DNA from: a virus
DNA: 26,217 bases
Strand: one strand, 5' to 3'
Virus record (IMG/VR): IMGVR_UViG_3300023184_000461
Span: 1-26,217 of that record
How positions within the stretch are numbered: the stretch's first letter is position 1; each line of letters opens with the position of its first letter. The position numbers were made by a program, and so were the translations under genes. A model generated the notes under the pieces. The model was not told where the DNA came from. It made no database searches and saw only the letters and a list, made by a program, of their open reading frames with translations. Of the stretch, positions 2,821 to 24,184 are shown one piece after another.

Positions 2821-2828
2821 TATAAGTA
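2821..2828 (-). promoter_or_regulatory. TACTTATA start-proximal motif (candidate late promoter)
   Basis: The coding strand reads TATACTTATA, ending 7 nt before the ATG of the 162-residue structural gene, inside a 66-nt gap. It is one of six copies of TAYTTATA found just before minus-strand starts in this window. It could be a late promoter element for the gp55-like sigma factor, but the short distance to the start codon would give a leaderless or nearly leaderless mRNA. Motif seen; function inferred. Confidence 0.4.
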
Positions 2829-2879
2829 TAATCCAACAATAGATTTGATCACAATCCGATTGGATTTTAGATTAAACGA

Positions 2880-4136
2880 TTAAAAATCAAGTCGTACTTT
2901 AACCAAAAGTTCATTTGAAAATGTCTTTTGAGAAGGTCTACTTAATTTGGCGATTGCAACCAACTCGTTATTTCCATTGTACAAGCCAACAGATGTAGGA
3001 TAAACCTTCGGATCAGTCAAAAAGTCTGTTTGCTTGATATCACCACGTTGATGAATCTCTAATGTTACAGGATCTTGTACCGATGTTTGATATGAGAACG
3101 TAGGATTATTGGTATAGTTAAAATCACGGTTTTTAACACGTACAAAATAATGTCTAGATGGTACATACTCGCTTCGTCTAAGTCTCATATTGTCATCAGA
3201 CGCTCTAATAGCATTATATACAGCTTCTTTAAACAACTGGTTGTTCAAATATGTACCAGACGCAGGTGCATTTGTTCTTGCGTTATTAAGTGTATTTACA
3301 GACGGAATAGTAATGTTTGCATTAGAGGAAGCATCTCCTCCTCCAGCGGAAGTCATCAAAACATTATTTAAAAACTCACAATTCAAAACCACTGTACCCG
3401 ATTTTGGAAATATAATACCTACTCCAGTGTTTGGATGATATTGTGCAACTGATTTTGCGCCGGTGTAATTTGATGTTCCAGTTAACAATCCGGTTGCATT
3501 ACCTGAATAATCATTGTATGTTGCTTCTCCGGTAGTTTCGTCATAATTACCTAAAATCAAATTGTAATATGTAGATGAACCACTACTTTGATTTGTAATA
3601 CTAGAATCATCAATCAAACGAACATACTGACCGCTTACATCATTTTCCAAAGTTATTTGAAATTGTCCAGCATCAATTCCATCTCTAATCTTTTGAGAAT
3701 TATAAGATAAAACAATAAAGTCTGTACTTAACGATACACTAGAAACCGTAGTTGAACCAATAGCTTGTGACTTCACTGAAAAAGTTTCACCATTATTAAG
3801 AGAATTTACATATTGTGTATAAATTGCCTTAGTAGGTGCTGCTTGAATGTTTGTATATTCATCATAACTAACACCAAATCCATTAATATTGCCATAAGCA
3901 ACACTTAAAATAACGTCGTTAGAACTTGATGTAGCAGAAACGCTAGGATATACATCCAAATAGTAATAACCATTATATAAGTCAAATCTATTTGATCCGG
4001 AGATTACTGCTTGCAAACTACCTGTTGCAACCTGATTTTGGACTTGATATACGGAACCGTTATTGAAAATTCCGGTTGATACTTTTGTAGATCTTCCTAC
4101 GACAATATCAGACTGTTCAAATTGTTTATAGATCAT
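2880..4136 (-). CDS. Virion structural/fibre protein with conserved C-terminal attachment-type module
   Basis: 418 residues, beta-rich, Ser/Thr/Asn-rich, no signal peptide. The C-terminal 120 residues carry a recognisable series: RRSEYVPSRHYFVRVKNRDF, then NYTNNPTF, then YPTSVGLYNGNNELVAIAKL and a terminal LLVKVRLDF. To my recollection this combination marks a family of virion structural proteins common in T4-like cyanophages and pelagiphages. The same C-terminal motif recurs in the partial 1-2316 protein (GLYTGSDLVAVAKLSSP), so the two are modular relatives. The gene follows the 4140-4772 gene with a 3-nt gap, in one operon. Role inferred: baseplate-proximal fibre or adhesin. The N-terminal 270 residues have no motif I recognise. 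No ribosome binding site is obvious. Confidence 0.75.
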   Translation of the reverse strand: MIYKQFEQSDIVVGRSTKVSTGIFNNGSVYQVQNQVATGSLQAVISGSNRFDLYNGYYYLDVYPSVSATSSSNDVILSVAYGNINGFGVSYDEYTNIQAAPTKAIYTQYVNSLNNGETFSVKSQAIGSTTVSSVSLSTDFIVLSYNSQKIRDGIDAGQFQITLENDVSGQYVRLIDDSSITNQSSGSSTYYNLILGNYDETTGEATYNDYSGNATGLLTGTSNYTGAKSVAQYHPNTGVGIIFPKSGTVVLNCEFLNNVLMTSAGGGDASSNANITIPSVNTLNNARTNAPASGTYLNNQLFKEAVYNAIRASDDNMRLRRSEYVPSRHYFVRVKNRDFNYTNNPTFSYQTSVQDPVTLEIHQRGDIKQTDFLTDPKVYPTSVGLYNGNNELVAIAKLSRPSQKTFSNELLVKVRLDF

Positions 4137-4139
4137 ATG

Positions 4140-4772
4140 TTAGGAAATTCTTACAGTAACAGGGATAACAACCGTTCCACCGCTTTCATTACCGACCACG
4201 GTAATTGTAGCAGATGTTGTAACTGTTAATGATGTATTTGGCACAAACTTAAATCGATTACCAACAACCACTTGGGAACTAGTACTAATCAAATCATTGG
4301 CAAACGATGGAACAGTACTTGTAGTAGTATTTGCAGCATTTGTTTGATCAACGATCAACGTACCAATTTTCTTATTAGACAAAATAGCAGTATATCCAAG
4401 TGTAAGGTTATATGCTGGATTAGTCGTTGGTGAAATCACATTATCAGATTTATTATCTTTTTGAACGTCAATTGATTGAATATTCAAACTAATGACTGGA
4501 ATTGATGTTACGCCTTGTGCGAGAGTAACCAATTTATATTTCATTGACTGAGTTTCATCAGACAGTGGTTGAAATACAGGTGTATTTCTAATAGCAATAT
4601 CATAATATGCACTACCCTGTGGATGGTTTGGATTGTACAAACTATAGTCAACTTCATCATCTGCCAATGCAAATGACGTAATATTTAGATTGCCAGTCTG
4701 AGCAAGAAGTTCTCTCCCTCTTTTCGTAAGGACCGCATCCACAGTAATTGATTTGTTATCGACGTATGCCAT
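4140..4772 (-). CDS. Conserved phage virion structural protein
   Basis: 210 residues. The N-terminus (MAYVDNKSITVDAVLTKRG, then RELLAQTG, then FALADDEVDYSLYN) matches, from memory, a conserved family of uncharacterised structural proteins in T4-like aquatic phages that is encoded among baseplate and fibre genes. The middle part (MKYKLVTLAQGVTSIPVI) is also typical. The C-terminal third is Thr/Val-rich and beta-type, ending in repeated TVTTSATITVVG-like strands that suggest an Ig-like fold. It begins 52 nt after the stop of the 1428-residue protein and has a TACTTATA motif 13 nt before its ATG, so it may start its own transcript with the two or three genes downstream. Specific function unknown. 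Confidence 0.75.
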   Translation of the reverse strand: MAYVDNKSITVDAVLTKRGRELLAQTGNLNITSFALADDEVDYSLYNPNHPQGSAYYDIAIRNTPVFQPLSDETQSMKYKLVTLAQGVTSIPVISLNIQSIDVQKDNKSDNVISPTTNPAYNLTLGYTAILSNKKIGTLIVDQTNAANTTTSTVPSFANDLISTSSQVVVGNRFKFVPNTSLTVTTSATITVVGNESGGTVVIPVTVRIS

Positions 4773-4785
4773 ATATGTGTTTGTT

Positions 4786-4793
4786 TATAAGTA
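4786..4793 (-). promoter_or_regulatory. TACTTATA start-proximal motif (candidate late promoter)
   Basis: The coding strand reads CAATACTTATAAAC, ending 13 nt before the ATG at 4772, in a 52-nt gap between two structural genes. TATAAACA here also matches the T4 late consensus TATAAATA at 7 of 8 positions. It is part of the six-member TAYTTATA set. Confidence 0.4.
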
Positions 4794-4824
4794 TTGTTTT
4801 AACTGTCTTTTTGTTTATTATTTT

Positions 4825-7800
4825 TTATTGAACTGTCAAAACTCCGTTATTTCCTGTAGAGACAGATGTGTTGGTTATTACCGTACTTACTATTGGTAAA
4901 CTTTTATCTGGATTTCCACAACTATCTACAGTATAGTTACTGGTTTGTTTTGATTTAACAAAATATCCATATTTAACACTATCATTAGCAATTACCTTAA
5001 ATAAATCCCAACGAATCGGATTGTGTCTAGTTCCCAAAAAGTTTTGTGTCGATCCACGAAATGGATTTCCTATCGTATATGAATACAAATCATACGTTTT
5101 CTTTGGTGTAACAACTAGTTTATTTAAAATTTTAGTATAAGACACGACAGAATTATTGGTTCCATATTCCGATACAGATGAACTAAATGGAATCATCCAA
5201 GTAAAATGTGGTACAGATTCAGATACATCATTACTTCTATAGGTAGCGTCAAATGATCCGTTAATAACATTAGTATCAAAATACATAATACCATAATCAG
5301 TACCAGTGTATAATTCACTATTTACCCACAATTCTTCATAAGATGTCACATCGTTAATATAAGAATATCCTCCTTGAAAATTCTGAAAATTATTATTGAG
5401 GATTAACGAACCAGTCTGTGGGAATATTAAGATTGGTTTCTTATCCACAAACTGTTGATAAGAACTTGAATTTTCTGTTTGGATTTGATCATTTCTGTAT
5501 ACAGTAATATTTGCAGCCGAACACGAATTTATCAAATGAGTCAATTCAAATGACTCTTCGTTAATAGAAACTTCAATTGGTTTAGATGGAAATTTAATTC
5601 TCTCCAAAATTGTTGGTTCAATTAAAATACCCGACAACAAAATATTACGAGCAGCAATAACATTACGAATTGATTCAAAAATACTTGAATCAAAATACAA
5701 TTTATAAATACTCGTAAATTCTTGATAAAGAATACGTCCACTGTATGTTGGTGATCCAGAAGAATAATACGCTGCACGCATGTCTTCAAGAAGTGAGTAA
5801 CTTGACGAAAACTCTTGACGTGGGTCTCCCAACTCACTCAATACATTTGTATCGCCAAAATATCTTAAAATCTCTTCGTTCTTACTAGATACCGGAGACA
5901 TAAACACACCAATTAAAGGAGAATCAGTATCATTGTCAAACGATGTGCTCTTATCAAACGGAGTTAAAGCAGATAAATTTTGATGATTTTTAATTGAAAT
6001 CTTATTGTTCCATAACAGATTTGGACCATAGCCAGATAATCTATATGATTGATTAACATTATATTGAATAAAGTTATAAGGAAATGCAGATGATGATTCT
6101 CCTAAACATATATTTGCGTATGGATACAATGAACTGGTTGGGTAATTTCCAGAATACATTGATCGAATAACTAATGTGTCATCATATAAATCCGGATTAT
6201 TTTCCAAAGAACTATATGTTGTATCCGAACTAACATCTTTACTTGGAATATTATATAGATAACATGTTAATGTTCCAGTGATTGATTCATATTGATACGT
6301 TTGAAGTGACGTACTTAACGATCTAGGATAATTGTAAGCTAAACGTAAATATAAATTGTTTCTAATATCGTTATAATTTGATTCATAATACGAATCGAAG
6401 TTATTTGCATGTTCCTTAAAGTTATTGTCAGTTATAGGAACCGTCCACAAATTCAATTTATCAATCGATCCGCTAAATTGTGTAGAACCCAATTTTAAAA
6501 ACGGTAATGTTCCATCGGTAAATGATACGTTCTGATCATATTCAAATATATCAGATGTAATTGAACGCAACCTATTATCACCTTCTTCATTGATTTCAAC
6601 AAATAAATCATATTTCGTTGGTATTTCATTGACATCCAATGAACCAGTATACAACGATGATGGATCGTTTTTACGAACCATAACACTATAAACATTTCCA
6701 TCAAATATTGGCAATAAGTCAGAAGAAAGTTCAGAGTCACCAATTTTAAATATAATTTTACCATTATTACTTAACGACTCTTTATAGGCATAAATTCTAT
6801 AATCATACTGTGAGGATGAGTCTGGAAACTTTCTTAATAAATCAATTTGACTTTGTTGAGCATAAGTCTTGCTGTAATTGTTACTAAATGCAAACTTAAA
6901 TTCAACTGTTTGCACCGAACTTGTATACGGTGTTAAAACATATGACTGAGTTGACATATTCAACAAATAAGAGTGTTTATCGAATGTGTACAATGATTGT
7001 GATACGTCTGAATATGCACCAAATTCACGAACGTTAATAATATTTGTTGGCACTCCATAACACGCCAACAACAATTTAACGCCCTCAACTGTACCTTTAG
7101 CTTTCAATATCGCAGGTAAACTATTTAAAATTCTATTGTTAATGATATTTGTTTTATCAGAAACCGAAGCATAATTTGTTCCTGCAATATAGTTACTATC
7201 CAAGTTAACATCATTTACTGACGATTGCATTTTCCATCCAAATGATGCCAACATACCATCCAAAATATTATTTGGAATGAAAGTATCCGTTCCCGTTACG
7301 TTATATGACAACATCGGGAATTTATCAATGTAAATATAAATGTTATCAAAATGATGACCGATCATTGATAAGAAAATCAAAAAGTCATCGTTATGTGAAT
7401 CTGATAACAAATAAGATGGTAAATTATTTATTAAACTGTCACGGTTATTTCTATCATATTCATCAGCCGCATCTTCATATGATTGTGGAAATCTATTTAT
7501 ATTGTTATATAAACTGTTAATCCACAAATAATATTCATACCCGTCAAAAGACAATTTAATATCATTAATCTCCCGATTTAATGTTTCAATTTTTTGTACA
7601 GTGTACTGATCCGAATAAGGTGCAGCATTTAAAGATGATATTGAAGCAAGTTTATTATTAATCGACGTTAACTTATTTTTATATATTATGATACGAGTTT
7701 TTGCAGATGAATACACTACAAAGTTTTCAAAGTTAGTATAATCTACATCAATTGTCGAAAATCTTTGTTTTAAAATTAAATCAATATCCTCTGACTTTGA

Positions 7801-9111: not shown

Positions 9112-9128
9112 ATGACTATGAATATATA

Positions 9129-12475: not shown

Positions 12476-12476
12476 A

Positions 12477-14432
12477 TTATACAGCCGTGGCTTTAATATC
12501 TACGTCTGGGTACTTCAACTCAAATACACATGGATCAAGCGACGGATAAATGATTTTGTTAACAATTGCAGCATCAATGTTATATTCAACATTCGAATAG
12601 TTTCCATTTTGTGATGTTAAATTATTTACTTTTAAATGTGCAACTGATTGTACACCCTCTACACGTGCAATTTCCAATTCCAATTGACTCAAGTTAATTG
12701 GTTGATTGAATCCCCACAAATCGATATTGAAAAAGTTCTTGATTGACTGTACACAGTTTGCAAGTACTTCTTTCTTGTTAAAATTATTATATGTTACGAT
12801 CTTAAACTCTACGCCAATGTTGATGATATATCCATCAATCAAATTGATGCCGTCTGTCATCATACGATAACGACTCAAATACTGACGTAAATTATGTAAC
12901 AAAGCAATGTTTGGTTTTGTAAGTTTTTTATCATTATCATAACTTAACAAATACATGTTTACAGCAAATGGATTTTGTAAATTTCCACTTATTTTTCTAT
13001 TACTTAGTACCTGATCAGTTTGTGTAAGTTCACCTTCCACAACTGAATTTGCATTTAAATTGTTATCAGAAATTACCGTTGTTTTTGCAATCGATCCAAA
13101 CTTCGCCGGCATTGCGTAACAACGAGCAATATAATCATCCGCAGTTACAACACGATTTTGAGCAGCAAAAAATGCTGTAGCGTTTTGTTTAATTTCATCT
13201 GTTGATTCTGGTCCATCACCCCCAACAGCAGGAGTATTGTTTTCAGCTGCTAGTGAATTTCTTACAACCTGAAATAAGTTCTGTTCAGCCGTGGATAAAA
13301 TTGAAATGTCATTTTCATACTCGACACTAACAATTCGGTTAATATCATTGGTTTGACTGTTTGACTCAACACCACCACCTACCAAATATTTAATCGTAAA
13401 CTGAGTTCCTTGTTTTGGATATACACCAAACGAATCCGAATTTACTATGTTAGATGGATCGATTGTTGCGTTTAAATTACCTAAATTAGATAAACTTACG
13501 CCTAAAATTTCAGCTGATGGTATAATAATTTCATCATTTACACTGTCATTGCCTGGTCCAAACTCAATGTGTGTCAAATTGTTTTGATCTATATTAGTTA
13601 CAAATTTTCGTTGCGTTCTTAACAATTTAACAATATTCGGTACTGAAGACTGATAACGAATAAATCTATCATCATTTAGTGATGTATTTTCATACGATGT
13701 TAATACAATATCTTGAGCAAGAAAATCGACTTCGTACCATGGAATATTATCTTGATCACGGACATCTAGTATTTCTAATACGTTTGATTCATCCAAATAT
13801 AATTTGTAATATGGTGTACTTTCATTTACAATAAAAGTCTTGGTTACAATCTGACCAGAGATTCCGTTGACGGTTTTCTTAATCAGAAAGAATTGTGGAA
13901 TTCCAAAATCATCACGGGAACTCACTGTTATTTCTCTTGGTGAATTTGTCGTATCCATTGAGAAATCAATCACATCTGTAGTTACAAATCCCACTCCACT
14001 ACTATTGATCAGCTGCATTCCAGCCTTAATGCGTAATGTATATTTTTCATCGGGAATATACTCACCGGACGAGTTTTTAACAGACGGTACTAACTGATAT
14101 ACATCAAAATTTGTTAAAGACGGTCTAGAAACTTTAGGTTTATACCCTAAAAATTTAGACAATGCTAATACGTTTTTACGTTCCTCGGTATAAGGAAACA
14201 AACTTTCTTTGAACTGTTGATCCAAATAAAATGACAAAACATCACCAACGTATGCTGCCATATCTATAAAAATAGTACCCGGCGATGAATCCGAAAAGTC
14301 TTGATAGTTTTTTGGAAAATAAGTTTTGGTATAATCAATCAGGTTTTTCTTGAACTGAGAAAAATCACGGTTCAAATAAGAAACGTCCTTATTTGTTAAC
14401 GGTTTAAATGTTTTCTGTGTATTAGAGGCCAT
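12477..14432 (-). CDS. 6: Baseplate wedge protein, T4 gp6-like (baseplate J-like)
   Basis: 651 residues, close to the T4 gp6 length (660). The N-terminus is diagnostic: DVSYLNRDFSQFKKNLIDY, then FSDSSPGTIFIDMAAYVGDV and LSFYLDQQFKESLFPYTEER. These are hallmarks of gp6/baseplate-J wedge proteins. Later parts include STDEIKQNATAFFAAQNRVV and ADDYIARCYAMPAKFG (the region conserved with Mu gp47/J proteins) and IGVEFKIVTYNNFNKKEVL near the C-terminus. In T4, gp6 dimers form the inner ring of the wedge together with gp25 and gp53 and drive baseplate assembly and conformational change. It lies 2 nt downstream of the gp25-like gene, the conserved order. The ATG at 14432 has a purine-rich GGAAGAT nearby. 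Confidence 0.92.
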   Translation of the reverse strand: MASNTQKTFKPLTNKDVSYLNRDFSQFKKNLIDYTKTYFPKNYQDFSDSSPGTIFIDMAAYVGDVLSFYLDQQFKESLFPYTEERKNVLALSKFLGYKPKVSRPSLTNFDVYQLVPSVKNSSGEYIPDEKYTLRIKAGMQLINSSGVGFVTTDVIDFSMDTTNSPREITVSSRDDFGIPQFFLIKKTVNGISGQIVTKTFIVNESTPYYKLYLDESNVLEILDVRDQDNIPWYEVDFLAQDIVLTSYENTSLNDDRFIRYQSSVPNIVKLLRTQRKFVTNIDQNNLTHIEFGPGNDSVNDEIIIPSAEILGVSLSNLGNLNATIDPSNIVNSDSFGVYPKQGTQFTIKYLVGGGVESNSQTNDINRIVSVEYENDISILSTAEQNLFQVVRNSLAAENNTPAVGGDGPESTDEIKQNATAFFAAQNRVVTADDYIARCYAMPAKFGSIAKTTVISDNNLNANSVVEGELTQTDQVLSNRKISGNLQNPFAVNMYLLSYDNDKKLTKPNIALLHNLRQYLSRYRMMTDGINLIDGYIINIGVEFKIVTYNNFNKKEVLANCVQSIKNFFNIDLWGFNQPINLSQLELEIARVEGVQSVAHLKVNNLTSQNGNYSNVEYNIDAAIVNKIIYPSLDPCVFELKYPDVDIKATAV

Positions 14433-14434
14433 AA

Positions 14435-14824
14435 TTAGTTATCTTCCAAAAACATTTCAATTTGTGTTGTATCGTTGTTCACTGAAATTGTAAGGTTAAT
14501 GTGTAATCTATAAATATCAACGTCCTCTCTTTTTAAAACTTTAACATCAATATTATTGATTGTCACTACCGGTACCCAAAATGTTATATCAGAAGTGAGT
14601 GATTGTTTTACTCGTTGAGCCAACGTTGTATCATTGGGATCAAAAACAAAATTATTCAATGAGTGACCAAACGTGGGTTGCATACGACGTTCTCCTTTTT
14701 TGGTACTCAACAAATTACGAATATTTGTTTTCACCTGTTCTAACGTATATATGGTTTGATTAAAAAAACCACTATTACCGTTTTGAATGGGTAAAGTTAA
14801 TCCTATTGGATACAATGTTGCCAT
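14435..14824 (-). CDS. 25: Baseplate wedge protein, T4 gp25-like
   Basis: 129 residues, matching the T4 gp25 length (132). The family signature is clear: TIYTLEQVKTNIRNLLSTKK, then GERRMQPTFGHSLNNFVFD, then TLAQRVKQSLTSDITFWVP and VVTINNIDV. The E-R-x-M/x-P-x-F/YG core is the conserved gp25/GPW motif. gp25-like proteins sit in the inner baseplate ring, bind gp6 and are thought to start sheath assembly; they are conserved in all contractile tails, including T6SS TssE. The start codon follows the stop of the upstream gene by a single nucleotide (TAAT-ATG), so translational coupling is likely. Confidence 0.95.
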   Translation of the reverse strand: MATLYPIGLTLPIQNGNSGFFNQTIYTLEQVKTNIRNLLSTKKGERRMQPTFGHSLNNFVFDPNDTTLAQRVKQSLTSDITFWVPVVTINNIDVKVLKREDVDIYRLHINLTISVNNDTTQIEMFLEDN

Positions 14825-14825
14825 A

Positions 14826-15248: not shown

Positions 15249-15287
15249 AGTAATATTAAATATCAAAATATATGGTCTGAAATCCAC

Positions 15288-17003: not shown

Positions 17004-17004
17004 A

Positions 17005-17373
17005 TTAAGACTTATTAATCTTTATCTCTCCGTTTGCTTTGCTTATCGATTCGATTTCACTCATAATTTGACGTTTTTCTTCGTCAGTTAAAAATCCATT
17101 CGTTTCACCATCAATTCCAATTGTTTGTCGGCTCATAATACGTTGAATAACCGATGCCAATTTAACTAACTGTTCATCATTTTTAACCTGAATATCAAAG
17201 TACTCTCTAATCAATGGTACGATCATTAAAGCGTCATTTGCAGTTTTAATCATCGATCTTAAATCGCTAATCAAAATATCAAGTTGATCACGATTGTTTT
17301 GGGAATTCTTAACAATATCCTTGCACAGATCAGAAAACTTCTTGTTTTTATATATCTCAATATCATTATCCAT
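17005..17373 (-). CDS. Conserved unknown protein heading the baseplate operon
   Basis: 122 residues, mostly helical and acidic/basic mixed, without membrane segments. The sequence (MDNDIEIYKNKKFSDLCKDI; later ALMIVPLIREYFDIQVKN, DEQLVKLASVIQRIM) suggests a compact helical protein. I recall similar small proteins beside the hub gene in related aquatic phages, without a known function. It lies 1 nt before the hub candidate's start and is the first gene after a strong terminator, so transcription of the baseplate block probably starts here; a CTATTTATA motif lies 16 nt before the ATG. A role in tail assembly or as a chaperone for the hub is only a guess from position. Confidence 0.7.
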   Translation of the reverse strand: MDNDIEIYKNKKFSDLCKDIVKNSQNNRDQLDILISDLRSMIKTANDALMIVPLIREYFDIQVKNDEQLVKLASVIQRIMSRQTIGIDGETNGFLTDEEKRQIMSEIESISKANGEIKINKS

Positions 17374-17389
17374 ACTTGGTACTTATTAT

Positions 17390-17397
17390 TATAAATA
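17390..17397 (-). promoter_or_regulatory. TATTTATA start-proximal motif (candidate late promoter for the baseplate block)
   Basis: The coding strand reads TTCTATTTATAATAATAAG, with the motif 16 nt before the ATG of the first gene of the baseplate operon and directly after the sigma-factor terminator. An overlapping TATAATAAT could also serve as a -10 box. It belongs to the six-member TAYTTATA set. Confidence 0.45.
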
Positions 17398-17399
17398 GA

Positions 17400-17425
17400 A
17401 AAACCACTCCTTTTAGAGTGGTTTT
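17400..17425 (-). terminator. Rho-independent terminator after the late sigma-factor gene
   Basis: A perfect 10-bp stem (AAAACCACTC / GAGTGGTTTT) with a 6-nt loop. Read on the minus strand it ends in TTTTTCTATTT, a good U-tract. It lies 24 nt beyond the stop of the gp55-like gene and before the baseplate operon, so it separates the sigma-factor transcript from the structural transcript. Confidence 0.85.
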
Positions 17426-17448
17426 CATTATTTTATTTTATAACACTT

Positions 17449-18342
17449 TTATAGTATACCGTTCTTTACATATGACTTGGTGATATTATTCTGATAGTTT
17501 TTCATTCGATTAATAACCTTAGTTATCTGTTGTGTTTTACATGATGAAATCTCTCGTATATACAAATACAATGCTTTCTTATTAAACGCATCGATTCTAT
17601 CACTGTTTCTAAACAACTCAATAACCGCATTTGCAATGTTAATATCACGTTGTTTAGTGAAAATTTTATTTACGTTATTTTCCCAATATGAAACCATCAT
17701 GTTAATGAATTCACGATTTTCTTCTTCTTTATAATGTGGATCGTCTTGTTGTAGTTTATAAGTGTTTTCATTTGTATCATCACTTATTTCAACATGTTGA
17801 TTAAAACGTTTATAATTGGTGTTGTTTTGAAAGATCAAATAGTTTTTAGCAATAATACTAAAATAACTAAAGGCTTTACCTTTACCACTTTCAAACTTAT
17901 GTATATTGGCAACCAAATGAGCAATTGTCTCCTTTTGTACTTCAATTGGACCCGTTTCAAAATAACAAAACTTAAATGTATTAAATACGTTCTCAACTAA
18001 CTTTTCAAACGCATATTTGATTTTACTATTATAAATTTCGTCACGTTCTGACTGCTCTTGCGATTGATTATATTGATTAATCGCTTCCTCAGTTTCAGAT
18101 GTAAAATACATCTTATCCTTTGGCTTTCGTGTCCTTTTGGTTTTCTTTGAAGATTCGATTATTGGCGTTTCGGAAATTGTAACGATACGCAACTTATTTT
18201 TCTTAATCACTTTTTTATTAGATGTTTTTAGTTTCTTTGCAACTTTCTTTTTTTTCTTAGAAATAGAAGTAACAACTCCACGGTTAGATTTTTTGTTACT
18301 TTTTATTTTAGAATTTTTCTTCTTGGTTTTTGTTTTTAACAT
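17449..18342 (-). CDS. 55: Late-transcription sigma factor, T4 gp55-like
   Basis: 297 residues. From residue 78 the sequence follows T4 gp55 family proteins: MYFTSETEEAINQYNQSQEQ, then RDEIYNSKIKYAFEKLVENV, then KGKAFSYFSIIAKNYLI, the sigma region 2-like core that binds RNA polymerase and melts the promoter. A C-terminal helical part (about 215-290) could hold a helix-turn-helix. Unlike T4 gp55 (185 residues), it has a strongly basic Lys-rich extension of about 77 residues. In T4, gp55 directs RNA polymerase to TATAAATA late promoters with gp33 and the sliding clamp. The start overlaps the upstream small membrane-protein gene by 35 nt in another frame; a terminator follows. This predicts late-promoter control of the structural genes in this window. 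Confidence 0.88.
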   Translation of the reverse strand: MLKTKTKKKNSKIKSNKKSNRGVVTSISKKKKKVAKKLKTSNKKVIKKNKLRIVTISETPIIESSKKTKRTRKPKDKMYFTSETEEAINQYNQSQEQSERDEIYNSKIKYAFEKLVENVFNTFKFCYFETGPIEVQKETIAHLVANIHKFESGKGKAFSYFSIIAKNYLIFQNNTNYKRFNQHVEISDDTNENTYKLQQDDPHYKEEENREFINMMVSYWENNVNKIFTKQRDINIANAVIELFRNSDRIDAFNKKALYLYIREISSCKTQQITKVINRMKNYQNNITKSYVKNGIL

Positions 18343-18601
18343 TGGAGTCGATCCTTTGATTGAGTTTTTGAATTATTGAATATAACTGTGAAAAGGTTGA
18401 TCCCACATCATCGTCCTTTTCAAAAATATGTTTATCATCAACGATTTTTATTTCACGATAAACGTCATTTATATCATTTTTAAATTCTACTATCCAACCC
18501 TCATACACGTCAATTTTATATTGACAAGAATTAACAATATAACATAATATAATTGTTGTTGCACAAAACAATCCTGTCAATAAACTTAATATAATAATCA
18601 T
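18308..18601 (-). CDS. Small single-helix membrane protein
   Basis: 97 residues. Residues 1-24 form one hydrophobic segment (IIILSLLTGLFCATTIILCYIV), which can be a membrane anchor or uncleaved signal. The rest is an acidic, helical cytoplasmic-type domain with IKIVDDKHIFEKDDDVGSTF and SQLYSIIQKLN. The FEKDDDVG motif recurs, as I remember, in small proteins encoded next to the late sigma gene in T4-like aquatic phages, so this is likely a conserved neighbour. It starts 3 nt after the stop of the 45-residue gene and overlaps the sigma-factor start by 35 nt. Function unknown. Confidence 0.7.
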   Translation of the reverse strand: MIIILSLLTGLFCATTIILCYIVNSCQYKIDVYEGWIVEFKNDINDVYREIKIVDDKHIFEKDDDVGSTFSQLYSIIQKLNQRIDSNVKNKNQEEKF

Positions 18602-18604
18602 AAA

Positions 18605-18742
18605 TCATTCATCGTCTTCTTGTTCATATTCACTACAATAATTTGTAAGATATATAAACGCTTCGTCTACTAAATCCCAATCTTTGTTAATTTTTGCTTC
18701 TCTTAACATCTGTACAATTTCACAAATTTCTTCTTGACTCAT
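18605..18742 (-). CDS. Small acidic protein (45 residues), unknown function
   Basis: The protein begins MSQEEICEIVQMLREAKINK, continues DWDLVDEAFIYLTNYC and ends in an acidic tail (EYEQEDDE). It looks like two amphipathic helices. It is head-to-tail with the small membrane-protein gene (3-nt gap), which supports it being real. A near-copy of the start-proximal motif (ATATTTTAAG, one mismatch to TAYTTATA) lies 8 nt before the ATG. No family name known to me. Confidence 0.65.
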   Translation of the reverse strand: MSQEEICEIVQMLREAKINKDWDLVDEAFIYLTNYCSEYEQEDDE

Positions 18743-18820
18743 AAGTACTTAAAATATTTATTCACACTTGAACGAATAAAGTTAAATAGTACTAACAAAT
18801 GTAAACATCAAAAAAATAAA

Positions 18821-19858
18821 CTATCTATGTGAAAAATATCGTTTGAAGAAATCATCACCTTGATTTTTTACAATTTTTTTTGTTTCCTCTTCATCCAATT
18901 TTCCATCATGGTTTTCGTCGTATTTTTCAATAATTGTTTCTAAATTATTGACATTTTCTTCTTGATCTTTAATTTCATCTACAACATTTTCTTTTTGAGT
19001 TTCAACTACAACATCACTGGATGAAACCTTACTGTTATCATTTTCTGATTTATTCGGTTTATATATAGCATATTCTTTACTCATCGACATATTATAAGCT
19101 AATATTAAAGCAACGGCAAGTGGATCGAATACGAATATAAGTACTACAATAAACCATTTGACTACTGTATTCAAGTTCATATTCAATTCGTCAGCAACAA
19201 ATTTAAATGTCTGAATATCTTTATTGGCAGATGTACTTAATTTAAGTTCTGAAATTTTCTTATCAATATTATCAATAGCCGAAGAATATGTTAAAGACTT
19301 TTCATTTTCTGCTTTGATATTTTTGTCAGTCTGATCAATTAACTCCATTGTTTGATCCTGTACCTGTCTAAATTGTATTGGATTTCTAGCTAATAAAGAA
19401 TTAGTATTTATTTCACTAAGTCTTGATTCTTGTGTTTTTCTCAATGATAATAGTGATCCTACCCGTGATTTAACCTCTGTTATTTTTAACTGTTCTTGGG
19501 TTTTCTGTTCTTCTAACAATTTAATGGTATCCATCATCATACTGTATTTAATAGAAGACTGTTGATATGCACTAGTAAGATATCCAAAAATACCTAAAGA
19601 TGTAATCAACATTAGAATAAATACCGCTCCACATAAATACGACTTCAATATCCACTTGGATTGATTCCAATATCTATATAAAAAAGATGTGGCTACTAAT
19701 TTACCAAGTTCAAGTGATGATGCCATTACCATTGATGCAATCGAAGCACCTGAAAATAACAATCCTATTCCCCATATAGAGAAAAAAGCGGCACATCCAG
19801 CTATGAATAGTGCGGAAAACCCAAGTAACAAATTGAAATTGAATAAGTTTCTGTTCAT
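18821..19858 (-). CDS. Four-helix membrane protein with central coiled coil and C-terminal EF-hand
   Basis: 345 residues. Hydrophobic segments at about 8-33, 36-58, 75-97 and 233-256. Between the third and fourth lies a 130-residue helical, probably coiled-coil region (100-230, e.g. KLLEEQKTQEQLKITEVKSR). After the last helix is a hydrophilic tail that contains a canonical EF-hand loop at 314-325 (DENHDGKLDEEE: acidic or Asn ligands at 1, 3, 5, 9, 12 and Gly at 6). I recall similar membrane proteins in other large aquatic phages (SLELGKLVATSFLYRYW resembles a conserved core), but no function is known. It could sense calcium, shape host membrane or anchor a complex. It sits alone between two terminators or gaps, with TATTTATA only 3 nt before the ATG. 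Confidence 0.8.
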   Translation of the reverse strand: MNRNLFNFNLLLGFSALFIAGCAAFFSIWGIGLLFSGASIASMVMASSLELGKLVATSFLYRYWNQSKWILKSYLCGAVFILMLITSLGIFGYLTSAYQQSSIKYSMMMDTIKLLEEQKTQEQLKITEVKSRVGSLLSLRKTQESRLSEINTNSLLARNPIQFRQVQDQTMELIDQTDKNIKAENEKSLTYSSAIDNIDKKISELKLSTSANKDIQTFKFVADELNMNLNTVVKWFIVVLIFVFDPLAVALILAYNMSMSKEYAIYKPNKSENDNSKVSSSDVVVETQKENVVDEIKDQEENVNNLETIIEKYDENHDGKLDEEETKKIVKNQGDDFFKRYFSHR

Positions 19859-19861
19859 GGC

Positions 19862-19869
19862 TATAAATA
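19862..19869 (-). promoter_or_regulatory. TATTTATA start-proximal motif
   Basis: The coding strand reads CTATATTTATAGCC immediately followed by ATG, so only 3 nt separate motif and start codon of the membrane-protein gene. It lies just after the hsp20 terminator, which is where a new promoter would be expected. A promoter here would give a leaderless mRNA. Confidence 0.4.
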
Positions 19870-19884
19870 TAGAATAAAATAAAA

Positions 19885-19910
19885 AACCCCCATCTATTGA
19901 GATGAGGGTT
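19885..19910 (-). terminator. Rho-independent terminator after hsp20
   Basis: An 11-bp stem with one mismatch (AACCCCCATCT / AGATGAGGGTT) and a 4-nt loop. On the minus strand it is followed by TTTTTTATTTTATT, a strong U-tract. It starts 7 nt beyond the Hsp20 stop codon. Confidence 0.85.
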
Positions 19911-19916
19911 ATATAT

Positions 19917-20405
19917 TTACTTAACTGTAATCTTTTTTACGTCCGGTTTAACTGGTTTAACCTTAGGTAATGTAATAGTTAACATACCATTTTGAAATTC
20001 AGCCTCTACCTTTTCTTTGGATATATTGTCTCCCAAAGTAAAACTACGACGGAAACTTGAACGTTTCAACTCACGGCGTATATATGTACCAGTCTCACTT
20101 CGTTCCTTATCCGGAACTACTAATTTATTACCCACAATAGTCAAAACATTAGCCTCCAGTTCGACATTTACGTCAGTCTTATCAAGACCGGGAATTTCCG
20201 CTTCAATTACCACTCTGTCTGAAAAATCAATGACATTGACTTTTGGGTATGATCCTTTTTCAAAAAAATCTACACCGAAATCTTGCGTAAAACTAGGCAC
20301 ATTAGCGGCAAAGAACTCATCAAAGATCTTGTCAAATGGCGTTAAGAATTCATCACGATGAATCGCACGTAGTGGGTTTTTACTAAACTTATTTAGACTA
20401 CTCAT
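19917..20405 (-). CDS. Small heat-shock protein (Hsp20/alpha-crystallin family)
   Basis: 162 residues, typical of bacterial-type small heat-shock proteins. The alpha-crystallin domain spans about 50-145: YPKVNVIDFSDRVVIEAEIP, GLDKTDVNVELEANVLTI, RRELKRSSFRRSFTLGD and the near-invariant FQNGMLTITLPK. The C-terminal tail ends VKKITVK, a basic tail carrying an IxV-like motif. These ATP-independent holdases keep unfolded proteins soluble; phage copies are common in T4-like cyanophages, where they are thought to protect proteins during virion production. The ATG at 20405 has a good Shine-Dalgarno sequence (GAAAGGAAAA, AGGA 9 nt upstream), which is unusual here, and a 130-nt leader with several hairpins. 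It is a single-gene transcript closed by its own terminator. Confidence 0.95.
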   Translation of the reverse strand: MSSLNKFSKNPLRAIHRDEFLTPFDKIFDEFFAANVPSFTQDFGVDFFEKGSYPKVNVIDFSDRVVIEAEIPGLDKTDVNVELEANVLTIVGNKLVVPDKERSETGTYIRRELKRSSFRRSFTLGDNISKEKVEAEFQNGMLTITLPKVKPVKPDVKKITVK

Positions 20406-20500
20406 AATATATTTTCCTTTCGTTAATAGTCCTTTTGGACCTATTATCTCTTAATCTTTTGGACTTAAGAGTGTAAAACACTTTGTCTTACTAAGCAATA
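20406..20500 (-). promoter_or_regulatory. Structured 5' leader of hsp20 with tandem hairpins
   Basis: Three hairpins can be drawn: 20425-20445 (AATAG-g-TCC / AAAA / GGA-CTATT, one bulge), 20448-20471 (7-bp CTCTTAA/TTAAGAG with a 10-nt loop) and 20470-20482 (AGTG/CACT-type stem), the last two overlapping by 2 nt. The 9-mer GTCCAAAAG occurs twice, so the arms could exchange partners. The Shine-Dalgarno sequence lies just downstream of the first hairpin. The layout would suit post-transcriptional control of a chaperone gene, for example by temperature, or mRNA stability. Hairpins are seen; function is inference. Confidence 0.45.
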
Positions 20501-20535
20501 TATATTGTATATTATCAAAAAAATCTAAATATATT

Positions 20536-21813
20536 TTATATGTCTATAACAGACTGTATGATGATGCGATCAAATAAATCATACACGTGTAACTTACAAT
20601 AATATGATGTTTCTTCAATGGCATCAAAATTAATCGATATTGAAATGGGATCTATTTTGGTTAACAATGACAAAATAAACTTTTTGTCAATTGACTGTGA
20701 TATCATCAATTTATCATCTTTGTTATACAAATCTAATTTAATAAAACTCACATTTTGATGATTTATTAATTTTGACGGAATTGATACTGTCTTTGTAAGT
20801 GTTTTGATACTAACAGAACTCGTTTTTCCACTCACGTAATTTTGATTATTAGGCGTTGGTGCAAATTTACCACTCAATGTATACAGTGATATCGTCTGAT
20901 CTTTGAAGTTTATTCCAGCGTATCTTTCATAATCAGAAATACTTCTTTGAGTTCCCATTTGATATTTGGGAGAAATAATTATTGATTCGTCATTATCTAT
21001 TCCAAACAAAACTCTATTTCTTTTGTGTGACGACGCATCACGTTCCCACCACGATTTATCTATCTTAATACTTTTATTTAAATCGTGATCATCCCAGTGT
21101 TTAATTCTAGCTTCTCTTGTATATTCGTGCCAAATAATAACCTTATGAGGATGATACAAATCATATCCATGCGTAAACGCTCTTACGGTTATACTAATTT
21201 CCTCACCATAAAAATAATATTCCGGATCATGTGACACTTCTTCACAAAACTTTCCATCTGTAAAAGCAAAATGGGCAGAATAAAATCTCGCGGGTATCGG
21301 AGATGTAAACTTTTCATAGTCTTGTATTTGGTTGGGTACAAATAGTACAGTGCCTTCGTCTGTAAATTCATAAAAATCCATACGCCAAGGAACCTTTTCA
21401 TACGTTTCCTTGGGATTAAGTGGATTGAAAGAAGGAACGTATGAGGTAAGTATGGGCTTTTTACTTCCCATACTTACGCACTGACTATACATTTCTTTTA
21501 AAGACGTATCCCATCCATTTACAAATCTATGATGTGAATCGATCTGTAATGTGTATCTCTCGCCATTGTAATGACGTTGAATCAAATTTCTTGCCCAACA
21601 AGCACCCTTACTTTTTTGATACGGCACATCAATGATTTCAATGTTTGGATACGTATTAAAAATATCCAAATTTTCAAATTCATCGTGTTGCCAACAAATA
21701 CAAACATGTAAATTGTCTGGATTTTCTGCCGTTTCAAACATGTCCAGAATAGTTGGAACTAATTCTGGATCTCTATATGATGCTATTTGTACAAAAATTG
21801 ATTCCTCATTCAT
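20536..21813 (-). CDS. Glycosyltransferase, GlcNAc-transferase family type
   Basis: 425 residues. The N-terminal 230 residues fit the GlcNAc-transferase family (Pfam 'GlcNAc', Skp1-type): FVQIASYRDPELVPTILDM, then LHVCICWQ, KGACWARNLIQRHYNGE and the metal-binding DxH (LQIDSHHRF, residues 92-94), then YFYGEEISI (204-205) and VIIWHEY. This is a GT-A fold that uses a nucleotide sugar, probably in the cytoplasm. The last 125 residues form a separate beta-type region. The gene starts 3 nt after the HD hydrolase stop, so the two are co-transcribed. The substrate may be a virion protein, phage DNA or host surface glycan; the sequence does not tell. Confidence 0.85.
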   Translation of the reverse strand: MNEESIFVQIASYRDPELVPTILDMFETAENPDNLHVCICWQHDEFENLDIFNTYPNIEIIDVPYQKSKGACWARNLIQRHYNGERYTLQIDSHHRFVNGWDTSLKEMYSQCVSMGSKKPILTSYVPSFNPLNPKETYEKVPWRMDFYEFTDEGTVLFVPNQIQDYEKFTSPIPARFYSAHFAFTDGKFCEEVSHDPEYYFYGEEISITVRAFTHGYDLYHPHKVIIWHEYTREARIKHWDDHDLNKSIKIDKSWWERDASSHKRNRVLFGIDNDESIIISPKYQMGTQRSISDYERYAGINFKDQTISLYTLSGKFAPTPNNQNYVSGKTSSVSIKTLTKTVSIPSKLINHQNVSFIKLDLYNKDDKLMISQSIDKKFILSLLTKIDPISISINFDAIEETSYYCKLHVYDLFDRIIIQSVIDI

Positions 21814-21816
21814 AAC

Positions 21817-22476
21817 TTAGTTTTGCAACTTCCACATATCATATTCACACCTACATGATATATAGTCAGCAACATGTACAATCCTCGGCAAATTTGTCTT
21901 CAACTCATGATCTGGATTGTATGACATCAAATACGATTTATTAGCTTCATGATACAATCCATCTGATAGCTTAATCGCAAGTGTCTCCTTCCAAGTACAC
22001 ACAATTCCATACTGTTGAAGAATAAACAAAGCACGATCAGTAACATCCATATATTGCAATTCAGAGTTAAACTTATAAATTTCACCCTTATTCTTTCGGT
22101 GCCATTCACTTTCTTGAATAAGATAATATTCACCTTGTTGTTTATCGCCCAATTTTCCAAGATCGTGATGAATTGTAGCAAACGCAAGTTCCTCATCCTC
22201 GAAATCAATAGTTCCTCCACGTGCTTCATACAACTTCTTAACACCAAACGAAGTGGTCAAAACATTCATAATATGATCCATATATCCACCGGGATATGCA
22301 TTATGATAATGTTCCTTGGCACTAGCAGGTGCCATAATAGCACGATAACCATACTCGTTTTCACTGTATAGATGTTTCAACTTATTCAGTCGATCACCAG
22401 TGAAGAAATTTTCGAGTTGTTTTAGAAATTTTTCGTAATTAGCAAAAAGCTCTTTTTCAGTATAAGATTTAGTCAT
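21817..22476 (-). CDS. HD-domain metal-dependent phosphohydrolase
   Basis: 219 residues, the right size for a single HD domain. The metal ligands are in the expected order: H68 (YPGGYMDHIMNVL), H104-D105 (FATIHHDLGKLGD) and D204 (HVADYIS). HD proteins hydrolyse nucleotides or phosphodiesters; phage members are suspected of acting on nucleotides or signalling nucleotides. Similar proteins are frequent in T4-like aquatic phages. A sigma70-like promoter (TTGACG-N17-TAGGAT) ends 7 nt before the ATG, so transcription could start almost at the start codon. The glycosyltransferase gene follows 3 nt after the stop. Catalytic residues appear intact; the substrate is unknown. Confidence 0.85.
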   Translation of the reverse strand: MTKSYTEKELFANYEKFLKQLENFFTGDRLNKLKHLYSENEYGYRAIMAPASAKEHYHNAYPGGYMDHIMNVLTTSFGVKKLYEARGGTIDFEDEELAFATIHHDLGKLGDKQQGEYYLIQESEWHRKNKGEIYKFNSELQYMDVTDRALFILQQYGIVCTWKETLAIKLSDGLYHEANKSYLMSYNPDHELKTNLPRIVHVADYISCRCEYDMWKLQN

Positions 22477-22483
22477 GAACTAC

Positions 22484-22512
22484 ATCCTATACCAAAAAAG
22501 AGCATTCGTCAA
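22484..22512 (-). promoter_or_regulatory. Sigma70-like promoter before the HD hydrolase gene
   Basis: On the minus strand -35 TTGACG (22507-22512), a 17-nt spacer and -10 TAGGAT (22484-22489). Predicted initiation about 6-7 nt downstream falls at or next to the ATG at 22476, so the mRNA would be leaderless or nearly so. The -35 box is the same as in the 24689-24716 promoter, which supports early, host-polymerase transcription of this pair of genes. Confidence 0.5.
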
Positions 22513-22532
22513 TTTTTTATTTTGATATTAAA

Positions 22533-23039
22533 TTATAACGGAGGATTAACTTGAAACGTAGACGATCCGTTTGGTGTGGTTAATGTAATGGAATTGATTA
22601 CATCAGATAAATTTTCTTTTGAAAAACCACATTGATTGAATCTATAAACCATAGCATTTCTACTTATTGAATTATATGAAACATTAGTTTGGCCATATGA
22701 AAATTCAGTACCATCAACATATATCCAATTGACATTGGGGTCAGGATGTACACGAACTGAAGTTATAGTGGGCGGTAACTTTGGATATTCTACAGTATAT
22801 TCAATTTGACTAGTAAATGTTCCATCCGGTGTCACTACCTTGAAAACTCCGATGCCAGACGCATCTTCAGAAAGATGAAATCCACACTGTGATTCCGAAT
22901 ATACCATTACATTATTACACTGTATTGCGTTGAAGTATACTTGCGTTTCATCTTTTACAAATCCAGACCCAAATAAATAAACCCACTGATTTGAGGGTCC
23001 GATTGTTGGCGATATAGAATTAATGATAGGAGATGTCAT
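22533..23039 (-). CDS. Two-domain IPT/TIG (Ig-like) protein
   Basis: 168 residues made of two IPT/TIG-type Ig-like domains. Domain 1 (about 3-84): SPIINSISPTIGPSNQWVYL, FGSGFVKDETQVYFNAIQ, FKVVTPDGTF. Domain 2 (about 90-166): PTITSVRVHPDPNVNWIYVD, GTEFSYGQTNVSYN, ITLTTPNGSSTFQVN. This is the usual pattern of P-x-I-x-x-ISP-x-x-G, then G-x-x-F, then V-x-T-P-G. There is no signal peptide. In phages such domains decorate capsids, tails or fibres and can bind carbohydrate weakly. It is encoded away from the structural block, between phoH and the HD gene. TATTTATA lies 6 nt before the ATG. Role inferred: virion decoration protein. Confidence 0.8.
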   Translation of the reverse strand: MTSPIINSISPTIGPSNQWVYLFGSGFVKDETQVYFNAIQCNNVMVYSESQCGFHLSEDASGIGVFKVVTPDGTFTSQIEYTVEYPKLPPTITSVRVHPDPNVNWIYVDGTEFSYGQTNVSYNSISRNAMVYRFNQCGFSKENLSDVINSITLTTPNGSSTFQVNPPL

Positions 23040-23045
23040 ATCTAA

Positions 23046-23053
23046 TATAAATA
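23046..23053 (-). promoter_or_regulatory. TATTTATA start-proximal motif
   Basis: The coding strand reads TTATATTTATATTAG, with the motif ending 6 nt before the ATG of the IPT/TIG gene, in a 26-nt gap after phoH. A late-type signal here would allow a probable virion protein to be made late although it lies among early-type genes. Confidence 0.4.
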
Positions 23054-23065
23054 TAATAAAAAAAC

Positions 23066-23794
23066 TTACACCGTTATTTTCTTAAGTTTTTTTATTATAA
23101 ATTTAACCAAAGCACTTCGAACAATATCATCCTCATCAAACTTGAATGTTTGAATTCCATTTTCTTTACTTTCCACATCATCAAATCCATTCATCATTTT
23201 AATAAATCCGCTTTTACCATTAATATCACTTTGATCAGGATCTCCTAAAATAAAAACTTTACTAAACTCACCAGTACGTGTTATTAACGTAATAAGTTCT
23301 TTATAAGTCATATTCTGAGCTTCGTCAGCAACAATACATCTAGCATTCCAATTTAATCCTCTTAAAAATCCAATCGGAATACTTTCAAGACGTTCTTCCT
23401 TTTGAAGAGAATCAATAGTTGCTTTATTAGTTAATTCTGACAACTTTTCTAACAACGGTTGAATATATGGCGCCATCTTTTCATTTGCTTCTCCCGGCAA
23501 AAAACCAAGTTTACTATCTGAACTTTCTACAGCACTTCTCAAATATAACAAATCACTCACTCTTTTTTGATTCATTAAAGTTAATGCTGCTAAAATCGAC
23601 ATATATGTTTTTGAGGTACCAGCAGGTCCACTAACAAACATTATCTTTGTGGTTTTATCTAACGCAGTATCTAAAAACTGTTTTTGTTTAATTGTTAATT
23701 CACGTTGATATATGTCAATTTCATTCTTGATTTTATTTTTTTGTGGAACAACAGGACTCTTATCTACGCCAACTTTATTCTTGTTTTTTTTCAT
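23066..23794 (-). CDS. phoH: PhoH-like P-loop ATPase
   Basis: 242 residues. Walker A GPAGTSKT at 56-63 (IMFVSGPAGTSKTYMSILAA), Walker B CIVADEAQN at 153-161, and the family's LGDPDQSD at 183-190. The section FLPGEANEKMAPYIQPLLEK is the conserved PhoH core. The first 30 residues are basic and probably disordered. PhoH proteins are ATPases related to helicase SF1 domains; bacterial ones combine RNA-binding and nuclease partners, while the phage copies, very frequent in marine phages, have no agreed function. The start overlaps the upstream gene by 20 nt in another frame, indicating translational coupling. Confidence 0.93.
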   Translation of the reverse strand: MKKNKNKVGVDKSPVVPQKNKIKNEIDIYQRELTIKQKQFLDTALDKTTKIMFVSGPAGTSKTYMSILAALTLMNQKRVSDLLYLRSAVESSDSKLGFLPGEANEKMAPYIQPLLEKLSELTNKATIDSLQKEERLESIPIGFLRGLNWNARCIVADEAQNMTYKELITLITRTGEFSKVFILGDPDQSDINGKSGFIKMMNGFDDVESKENGIQTFKFDEDDIVRSALVKFIIKKLKKITV

Positions 23795-24116
23795 TCAGTT
23801 TTTTTGGTTTGTTAGTACTGTCTAGTAACAATTCGATTTGTTTTACTCTTTTACACAATTCGTATTTTTCTTCTTGTATGTAAAAATTATAAACGTTTTG
23901 TATGTTATCCAGAAAAGCCTCTCTGGAAATAGTAATTACAAAATCAGAATTTTTAAAATTGAAAACCTCTACCATTGGTAGATTTTTTTTGATAGCAAAT
24001 TCAATAGAAGAAATAACCCGTTCCGTTAAATCGGTTTTATATAATTTAACATACGACTCCAATTCTTTGAAGTCAGACGGTAACACAAATGGCTTGTATT
24101 TTTCTTTTATTGCCAT
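23775..24116 (-). CDS. Unknown protein coupled to phoH
   Basis: 113 residues, soluble, mixed helix and strand. A central part (FVITISREAFLDNIQNVYNF followed by YIQEEKYELCKRVKQIELLL) looks helical and, as I remember, recurs in small genes just before phoH in related aquatic phages. The C-terminal ten residues are basic. The 20-nt overlap with phoH suggests a fixed stoichiometry or a partnership. No catalytic motif visible. TATTTATA lies 8 nt before the ATG, and the region upstream holds the terminator of the preceding cluster. Coding status is supported by the overlap and codon composition. Confidence 0.7.
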   Translation of the reverse strand: MAIKEKYKPFVLPSDFKELESYVKLYKTDLTERVISSIEFAIKKNLPMVEVFNFKNSDFVITISREAFLDNIQNVYNFYIQEEKYELCKRVKQIELLLDSTNKPKKLNEKKQE

Positions 24117-24124
24117 ATAACACT

Positions 24125-24132
24125 TATAAATA
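24125..24132 (-). promoter_or_regulatory. TATTTATA start-proximal motif
   Basis: The coding strand reads GATATTTATAAGTG, ending 8 nt before the ATG of the phoH-coupled gene, 28 nt after the terminator of the upstream cluster. It is part of the six-member TAYTTATA set. Confidence 0.4.
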
Positions 24133-24160
24133 TCTTTACAAGTTAGATTAAGACAATAAA

Positions 24161-24184
24161 AAACGCCATCGTATGATGGCGTTT
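24161..24184 (-). terminator. Rho-independent terminator (perfect 10-bp stem, tetraloop)
   Basis: AAACGCCATC / GATGGCGTTT with a 4-nt loop, followed on the minus strand by further T residues (GGCGTTTTTTATTG). It lies 26 nt beyond the stop of the Lys-rich small gene and ends the transcript that begins at the 24689-24716 promoter. Confidence 0.88.

Follow-up and report, generated by a model that had tools for sequence, protein, structure and literature searches.

The subject of this analysis is a short element, TAYTTATA, in a 26,217-base stretch of viral DNA (IMGVR_UViG_3300023184_000461; G+C 0.32), the whole of which is called the window. The element stands shortly before the start codons of six minus-strand genes. 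We consider it probable that this motif is the core of the late promoter used by the window's phage and its relatives, that it is read by a phage sigma-2 protein, and that it lies near enough to the AUG for many late mRNAs to be leaderless or nearly so. Open reading frames (ORFs) of at least 60 amino acids were called greedily, using ATG only and starting from the first ATG.

The six sites named in a first-pass annotation of the window are all present on the minus strand, with gaps to the ATG as given there. Two of the copies read TACTTATA. The first (2821..2828) lies 7 nt before the ATG at 2813 of the ORF at 2325..2813 and is kept in three of six group members, with the window's phage included. 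The second (4786..4793) lies 13 nt before the ATG at 4772 and is kept, with shifting spacing, in five of six members. Its ORF (4140..4772) has 38% identity to immuto ORF 90688-91347 (gp107). The other four copies read TATTTATA. The copy at 17390..17397 is 16 nt from the ATG at 17373 and is found at -12 to -25 in five of seven members. It precedes the ORF at 17005..17373, which is 35% identical to immuto ORF 78906-79256 (gp117) and leads a tightly packed run that includes the wedge genes gp25-like (14435-14824) and gp6-like (12477-14432). The copy at 19862..19869 is only 3 nt from the ATG at 19858, is kept at -12 or -13 in four of six members, and precedes an ORF (18821..19858) with a sub-threshold EF-hand-like tail. 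At 23046..23053 the element is 6 nt from the ATG at 23039 of an ORF with an IPT/TIG domain (22533..23039), and two of four members keep it. The last copy (24125..24132) is 8 nt from the ATG at 24116, is kept in four of five members, and precedes an ORF (23775..24116) that overlaps the start of PhoH (23066-23794). A near copy, TATTTTAA, also precedes 18742, as had been noted.

Three of these elements, those before 17373, 19858 and 24116, lie behind minus-strand hairpins that are followed by a T tract and called as intrinsic terminators. The approximate positions are 17399..17423, which ends just upstream of the 17390 element, 19881..19908 and 24158..24183. The same sites occur in the longer record of the window's phage, before the genes at 24998-25366, 22513-23550 and 18255-18596, respectively. 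An A+T-rich hairpin upstream of the 23046 element was seen by eye only and was not called by the terminator finder. The first-pass annotation had further assigned sigma70-type promoters to two starts that lack the element. By eye, one such sequence is indeed present before the ATG at 22476 (22477..22512, minus strand; TTGACG from -36, with TAGGAT 17 nt on), and none is clear in the 60 nt before 24638. Near the structural genes, the window also carries genes for a GlcNAc-type glycosyltransferase (20536-21813) and Hsp20 (19917-20405).

The proposal that the element marks starts that follow a gap is borne out by the window, where six of nine starts with a gap of at least 20 nt carry it versus none of 13 with a smaller gap. 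This tally covers the 22 minus-strand ORFs up to 24116; for the start at 24116, the gap is taken to extend as far as the plus-strand ORF at 24173. The companion claim that only a few chance copies would be expected fails, because shuffles of the window give 8.5 copies on average and the 12 observed were reached in 15 of 100 shuffles. Since the total is ordinary, the signal lies in placement and strand. Eleven of the 12 copies are on the minus strand, and six copies fall within the 26 nt preceding one of 24 ORF starts, compared with a first-order expectation of 0.24 and a maximum of three in 300 simulations.

Relatives of the phage were sought by several routes. A megablast search of window bases 1-25000 against phages gave zero matches. 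The gp6-like wedge protein matches proteins in 24 phage records, the best being Microcystis phage Mel-JY01 (40%), an uncultured 484-kb phage (LR756508; 39%) and Flavobacterium phages (immuto, 34%). A PhoH search of IMG/VR returned 72 loci, ranging from identical down to 34%. The motif was counted in 14 of these 72 relatives, and seven records (G001, G003, G006, G007, G008, G009 and G014) were taken whole or nearly whole, with only the final 68 bases of G006 missing. The window's phage is contained in G009, and G001, G006 and G009 are close relatives. The comparison stretches were 150 of 160 kb of immuto (NC_055915), 50 of 190 kb of Mel-JY01, 42 of 484 kb of LR756508, 50 kb plus 20 kb of T4, and 50 kb of Syn1.

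A de novo search upstream of genes in the relatives, which the first-pass annotation had named as a check, recovered the same element and found it enriched before virion genes. Applied to 412 upstream regions taken from the seven records, expectation maximization (EM) gave the motif (T)N[A/C]TATTTATA with a log-likelihood of 321, versus 55 for shuffled sequences. The recovered motif, [A/C]TATTTATA, is slightly longer than TAYTTATA, whose third base is seldom C. When 8-mers were ranked in 384 upstream regions of the six records other than that of the window's phage, ATATTTAT came first (67 versus 3.4 expected) and TATTTATA second (62 versus 3.5). Individual records yielded less, as G009 and G007 contribute few sequences. 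For G009 the EM signal is weak (40.6 versus 35.8 shuffled), for G007 a degenerate form was found (45.0 versus 34.5), and for G001 the early-type box described below emerged instead of TAYTTATA. Neither EM nor the upstream 8-mer search found such a motif in the 50 kb of Mel-JY01. Total TAYTTATA counts in the 14 relatives are similar to or below those of a backward control and are thus uninformative. The control has an upstream excess of its own, since ATATTYAT and the longer motif overlap.

Placement also decides whether the motif might simply be an A+T-rich 8-mer falling by chance into the gaps of an A+T-rich genome. The unremarkable total in the window would fit this explanation. However, the six other records hold 67 suitably placed copies versus 4.8 expected, in keeping with the excess in the window. 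The reverse complement, which has the same composition, is nearly absent before starts, with six copies versus 79 for the motif in the last 26 nt summed over the seven records. We regard the chance explanation as hardly credible. Orientation is similarly biased between genes, where 157 intergenic copies of [A/C]TAYTTAT in the seven records face a start, 26 do not, and two run to the end of a record. Inside coding DNA the same pattern occurs 68 times in the sense and 68 times in the antisense direction.

The evidence supports the view that the motif behaves as a promoter and not as a ribosome site, and we infer promoter status itself from sequence context. A stack of 115 sites yields a single directional element with no -35 box, the only other feature being a slight excess of A+T some 14-16 and 24-28 nt further up. 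The element is present in 19 of 27 genes that have an intrinsic terminator within 70 nt upstream versus 88 of 368 others (Fisher p 1.4e-6). Its distance shifts among orthologues, for example at -25, -24, -25, -14 and -12 in one set where two of seven members are without a nearby copy. In one orthologue group (group 4), three coincidental copies fall within coding sequence (gaps of -4, -1 and -4) and were left in the counts. We also read 22 upstream regions to 140 nt, chosen because they had no near copy or were of special interest, and the element was found further up in 10. Among these are the sheath gene, with copies at -42 and -48, and all four instances of the gp67-like gene, where the element stands at -100 to -110. 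Finally, seven of 141 tRNA or transfer-messenger RNA (tmRNA) genes identified by ARAGORN in the seven records are preceded by the element, versus none of 141 for the reverse-complement control. This placement counts for a promoter because RNA genes need no ribosome site.

A different view is that the motif is a translation signal in the mRNA, such as an A/U-rich ribosome or S1 site that replaces the Shine-Dalgarno sequence. The sharply preferred distance to the AUG is what such a signal would show, Shine-Dalgarno words are infrequent in these genomes, and a study on Flavobacterium johnsoniae correlates initiation with A at -3, -6, -12 and -13 (PMC6847099). However, genes with a gap of less than 8 nt must be translated too, and TAYTTATA occurs within 30 nt of only one of 196 such genes, with a wider 40-nt pattern adding a few, such as the in-frame coincidences of group 4. 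The association with terminators, the distances of 40-110 nt before the sheath and gp67-like genes, the still greater distances in immuto, and the copies before some RNA genes are equally hard to reconcile with a ribosome site. Thus, this explanation appears very unlikely. As a separate observation, the gp67-like gene (in G001, G006, G003 and G014) has a leader of about 100 nt after the late element, with stretches common to all four records, and this leader could hold a regulatory RNA.

The genes that carry the element are predominantly those expected to act late. Genes were assigned by homology to annotated immuto genes, with lists of virion and replication genes that we picked from the immuto annotations, and among genes with a gap of at least 10 nt, the element precedes 20 of 39 in the virion set versus none of 10 in the replication set (p 0.003). 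When all gaps are counted, the numbers are 20 of 68 and none of 11. In immuto, which encodes a related sigma-like protein, the same element is found before the portal, sheath, tube and other genes, and TAYTTAT precedes 15 of 27 gapped genes in the late cluster at 117-160 kb. From these distributions we infer that the element likely acts late. The original suggestion that the motif may be this phage's late promoter therefore passed the test of enrichment upstream of structural genes, and the replication genes examined were spared.

The element is placed unusually close to the AUG. Of the 419 genes in the window's group that have a gap of at least 8 nt, 120 have it no more than 70 nt upstream. 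The spacing to the ATG is 3-6 nt in 62 of these 120 and less than 3 nt in one, and the others tail off to 61 nt. The late 8-mer of T4 begins at -13, so that five bases separate its end from the RNA start (PMC2988020). If the same geometry applies, a spacer of 5 nt would set the RNA start on the A of the AUG, and spacers of 3-6 nt would set it within two bases. Nearly leaderless late mRNAs, as the first-pass annotation had suggested, are thus implied by the spacing, with RNA start positions that are projected from T4. Shine-Dalgarno-like words offer a further comparison (genes of at least 80 amino acids). They are found before 31 of 169 operon-internal genes versus nine of 169 control stretches (p 0.0003), and are not enriched before genes with the motif (four of 120 versus six of 120). 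This contrast lends weak support to the leaderless reading, because the motif partly fills the space in which such words would occur.

The same ORF caller gives different spacings for T4 and its kin. In the T4 late region, NATAAATA precedes 13 of 53 ORFs at 12-35 nt from the ATG, and in Syn1 it precedes three of 35 with spacers of 12, 16 and 35 nt. TAYTTATA itself occurs before six of 53 ORFs of the T4 late stretch at 11-55 nt, which we take as background. In immuto the element is most often 11-20 nt from the ATG (15 of the 33 genes that have it, versus four at 3-6 nt), which corresponds to leadered mRNAs and differs from the arrangement in the window's group. These comparisons bear on the possibility that the motif is a late promoter whose mRNAs have ordinary leaders, either because translation really begins at a later codon than the first ATG or because the RNA begins further down. 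Our ORFs are called from the first ATG, and roughly half of the genes have spacings above 6 nt, both of which leave some room for this view. However, the sharp peak at 3-6 nt is measured to the first ATG and would not arise were that ATG irrelevant, the T4 genes do not show it under the same caller, and many orthologues share these starts. Ordinary leaders throughout therefore seem quite unlikely.

A TA-like signal some 12 bp upstream of the start has been used to mark leaderless genes (PMC3160421), and at about half of our sites the element lies at such a position. The signal described there is a sigma70-type Pribnow box of cellular genes, whereas the present phages combine a late-type phage element with early-type sigma70-like promoters. 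Another parallel is with T4 late promoters, which likewise consist of one 8-bp TATA-like element with no -35 box before virion genes. As the first-pass annotation had stated, the motif differs from the T4 consensus, because TAYTTATA is neither TATAAATA nor NATAAATA. A T4-type late promoter with NATAAATA is also reported for cyanophage S-PM2 (PMC2984593). It had been remarked as well that the motif is the reverse complement of the T4 sequence at four sites. This is true of TATTTATA and TATAAATA, but the two already agree at six of eight positions (TATxxATA) in the same direction, which makes a flipped reading unnecessary. We dropped the reverse-complement reading since the reverse complement is depleted upstream of starts. 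A literature search at the level of result listings returned no description of this element or of start-proximal late promoters in such phages.

A candidate late sigma factor of 297 amino acids is encoded on the minus strand at 17449..18342. It is predicted to have a basic N-terminus modeled with low confidence, a sigma-2-like region at about residues 78-183, and a helical C-terminal domain at 200-297. There is no Pfam or PHROGs match. In the AF2 model, residues 80-182 mostly have pLDDT values near 90, with a mean of 64.6 for the whole model. The best VIA-align match is T4 gp55 in the open complex 7d7c_F (Z 11.0, 117 residues, rmsd 4.7). Domains of other sigma factors, mostly sigma-2, score within one Z unit of it, so that the match does not point to gp55 in particular. 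With Foldseek alone, no hit fell below E 0.1, though sigma factors dominate its list. Sequence comparison with gp55 by hhalign is weak (probability 11.5%, pairwise E 0.0026, 86 columns), a gp55 HMM run against the ORFs of the fetched loci recovered only gp55 of T4 itself, and PHROG 234 weakly matches one of 15 family members (E 0.62). Thus, the label of a gp55-like sigma factor suits the predicted fold and is hardly supported by sequence.

T4 gp55 is not known to have a sigma region 4, whereas the candidate carries an extra C-terminal helical domain of 98 residues. When this domain was folded alone, its best match was chain M of the SigN polymerase complex 9msj at Z 6.0, with SigR region 4 at Z 4.8, below the noise level of the tool for helical folds. 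These matches are weak, and unrelated helical proteins are among them. The family comprises 36 ORFs (fragments included) in the fetched loci, and takes in an immuto ORF (gp118 by position) and a Mel-JY01 ORF. LR756508 also has a member. Gene content and architecture suggest that the candidate sigma factor is probably the protein that reads the element. A 69% relative of the sigma-like protein is also found on L156, a 3.4-kb contig in a Methanoregulaceae bin, which is probably mis-binned phage DNA.

Some of the relatives also have a second promoter-like class, TTGACT-N16/17-TAnnnT, which we label "early" from the size of the genes and the kind of promoter. Of 65 cases, 44 have TTGAC between -38 and -34. 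Among 50 TTGAC copies between -42 and -30, TAnnnT follows the hexamer after 16-18 nt in 47, and if RNA is taken to start 7 nt beyond TAnnnT, 44 of these 47 would have leaders of 0-3 nt. In G001 (L085-L090), a long early-type word, TTGACTTTCTCTAAAA, followed by TGATA-like bases stands at about -37 before many small genes. These observations invite a broader reading in which, across an entire group of T4-related phages, both early (TTGACT-N16/17-TAnnnT) and late (TAYTTATA) promoters are fixed so that RNA starts on or just before the AUG. Genes with their own promoters would then be leaderless or nearly so, Shine-Dalgarno sequences would serve mainly operon-internal genes, related Flavobacterium phages would retain the late element but set it further off to provide leaders, and promoter position would follow how the host initiates translation. 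We put this reading forward tentatively, with the chances for and against it nearly in balance.

Several results weigh against our interpretation of the motif and of these promoters. About half of the eligible virion genes have no near-start element, and the major capsid gene lacks it in three full-length copies as well as in immuto, though that gene may be served from upstream. Of the 22 regions inspected over 140 nt, 12 contain no element. The link between sigma factor and motif is not tight. Mel-JY01 encodes the same sigma-like protein and has the placed motif at none of 57 genes, and LR756508 encodes one and has seven scattered copies in 42 kb. T4 gp45, the clamp of the T4 late transcription system, was matched by phmmer only to itself in the fetched, partly incomplete records. 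The counts are not independent because the records are related, and the 46 aligned early-type sites come mainly from one record (27 from G001, with nine from G008, seven from G003, two from G007 and one from G009). In immuto, TAYTTAT precedes three of six gapped genes at 1-11 kb, at the replication end, and, at 20-50 kb, five of 26. Two tRNA promoters of G007 have TATTTATA downstream of a TTGACA box, where it could act as a conventional -10 element, so some copies may serve a host sigma factor too.

The last two observations also favor a promoter that is read by the host's own sigma factor as a strong -10 element without a -35 box, with no phage sigma factor and hence no specifically late action. 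Pribnow-like hexamers are contained within TAYTTATA, and several positions resemble the Bacteroidota -7 element TAHHTTTG. That element is likewise A+T-rich, lies 4-5 nt before the RNA start and is accompanied by a weak -33 element (PMC6847099). However, the phage element is without the terminal TTG, and the early-type promoters of the window's relatives (TTGACT/TAnnnT) are unlike those of Bacteroidota. The same source reports that 87% of F. johnsoniae leaders are longer than 10 nt. Moreover, the TTGACT class is distinct from the motif in some of the same genomes (mostly G001, G008 and G003) and is largely found before small genes, and the replication genes examined in the window's relatives are without the element. 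Early- and late-type elements also concentrate in separate regions of immuto, where the cluster at 60-80 kb has another element, TATATTTAG-like and usually at -30 to -39, before 21 of 31 gapped genes. The immuto search patterns for the two elements coincide at a few sites. On balance, recognition by a host sigma factor without a phage sigma factor is unlikely.

Some further features of the relatives are recorded here. WhiB (PF02467) was found in none of 13 records, so this marker gives no sign of an actinobacterial host. An archaeal host, suggested by L156 as the one match among genome contigs, was not trusted because the early-type promoters look like bacterial sigma70 promoters. Six of the seven relatives encode 15-38 tRNA or tmRNA genes, and G014 has none. 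The loci that carry them are L082 (G009), L085-L090 (G001), L091-L094 (G006), L095 (G007), L104-L105 (G003) and L111-L112 (G008), and the G009 cluster ends just past the high end of the window. A tmRNA is encoded in G001, G006 and G008. A tRNA at L088:11347-11422 in G001 has the anticodon CTA (labeled Pyl by ARAGORN) and is a possible amber suppressor. A four-base anticodon (ctct) was called at L105:4693-4768 and L111:13344-13419, which lie in similar tRNA neighborhoods of two relatives.

Taken together, the data are best explained by a single-element, T4-style late promoter variant that is set at the start codon, a verdict we hold with reasonable confidence, and the early-type promoters, where recognized, are also start-proximal. 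According to this model, host RNA polymerase joined by the phage sigma-2 protein (17449-18342) would probably read [A/C]TAYTTATA, which occupies the -10 position and has no -35 partner. The element would stand 3-6 nt from the AUG in about half of its genes and no more than about 20 nt away in most others. Transcription that starts roughly one turn of the helix beyond the element would then begin on the AUG or a few nucleotides from it, and many late mRNAs would be leaderless or nearly so.

Phage transcripts are often leaderless according to a report on phage AR9 (PMC5312081), and single leaderless cases are thus unsurprising. If our model is true, many late virion genes of this lytic phage group would offer a natural example, on the scale of a genome, of leaderless translation when demand is heavy. 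Late transcription from a single element, apparently driven by a sigma-2 protein, would also be extended to a branch whose sigma factor had no Pfam or PHROGs match. A whole promoter class at this distance, together with the leaders predicted for immuto, would make it possible to ask whether phage promoters are repositioned to fit the translation of the host.

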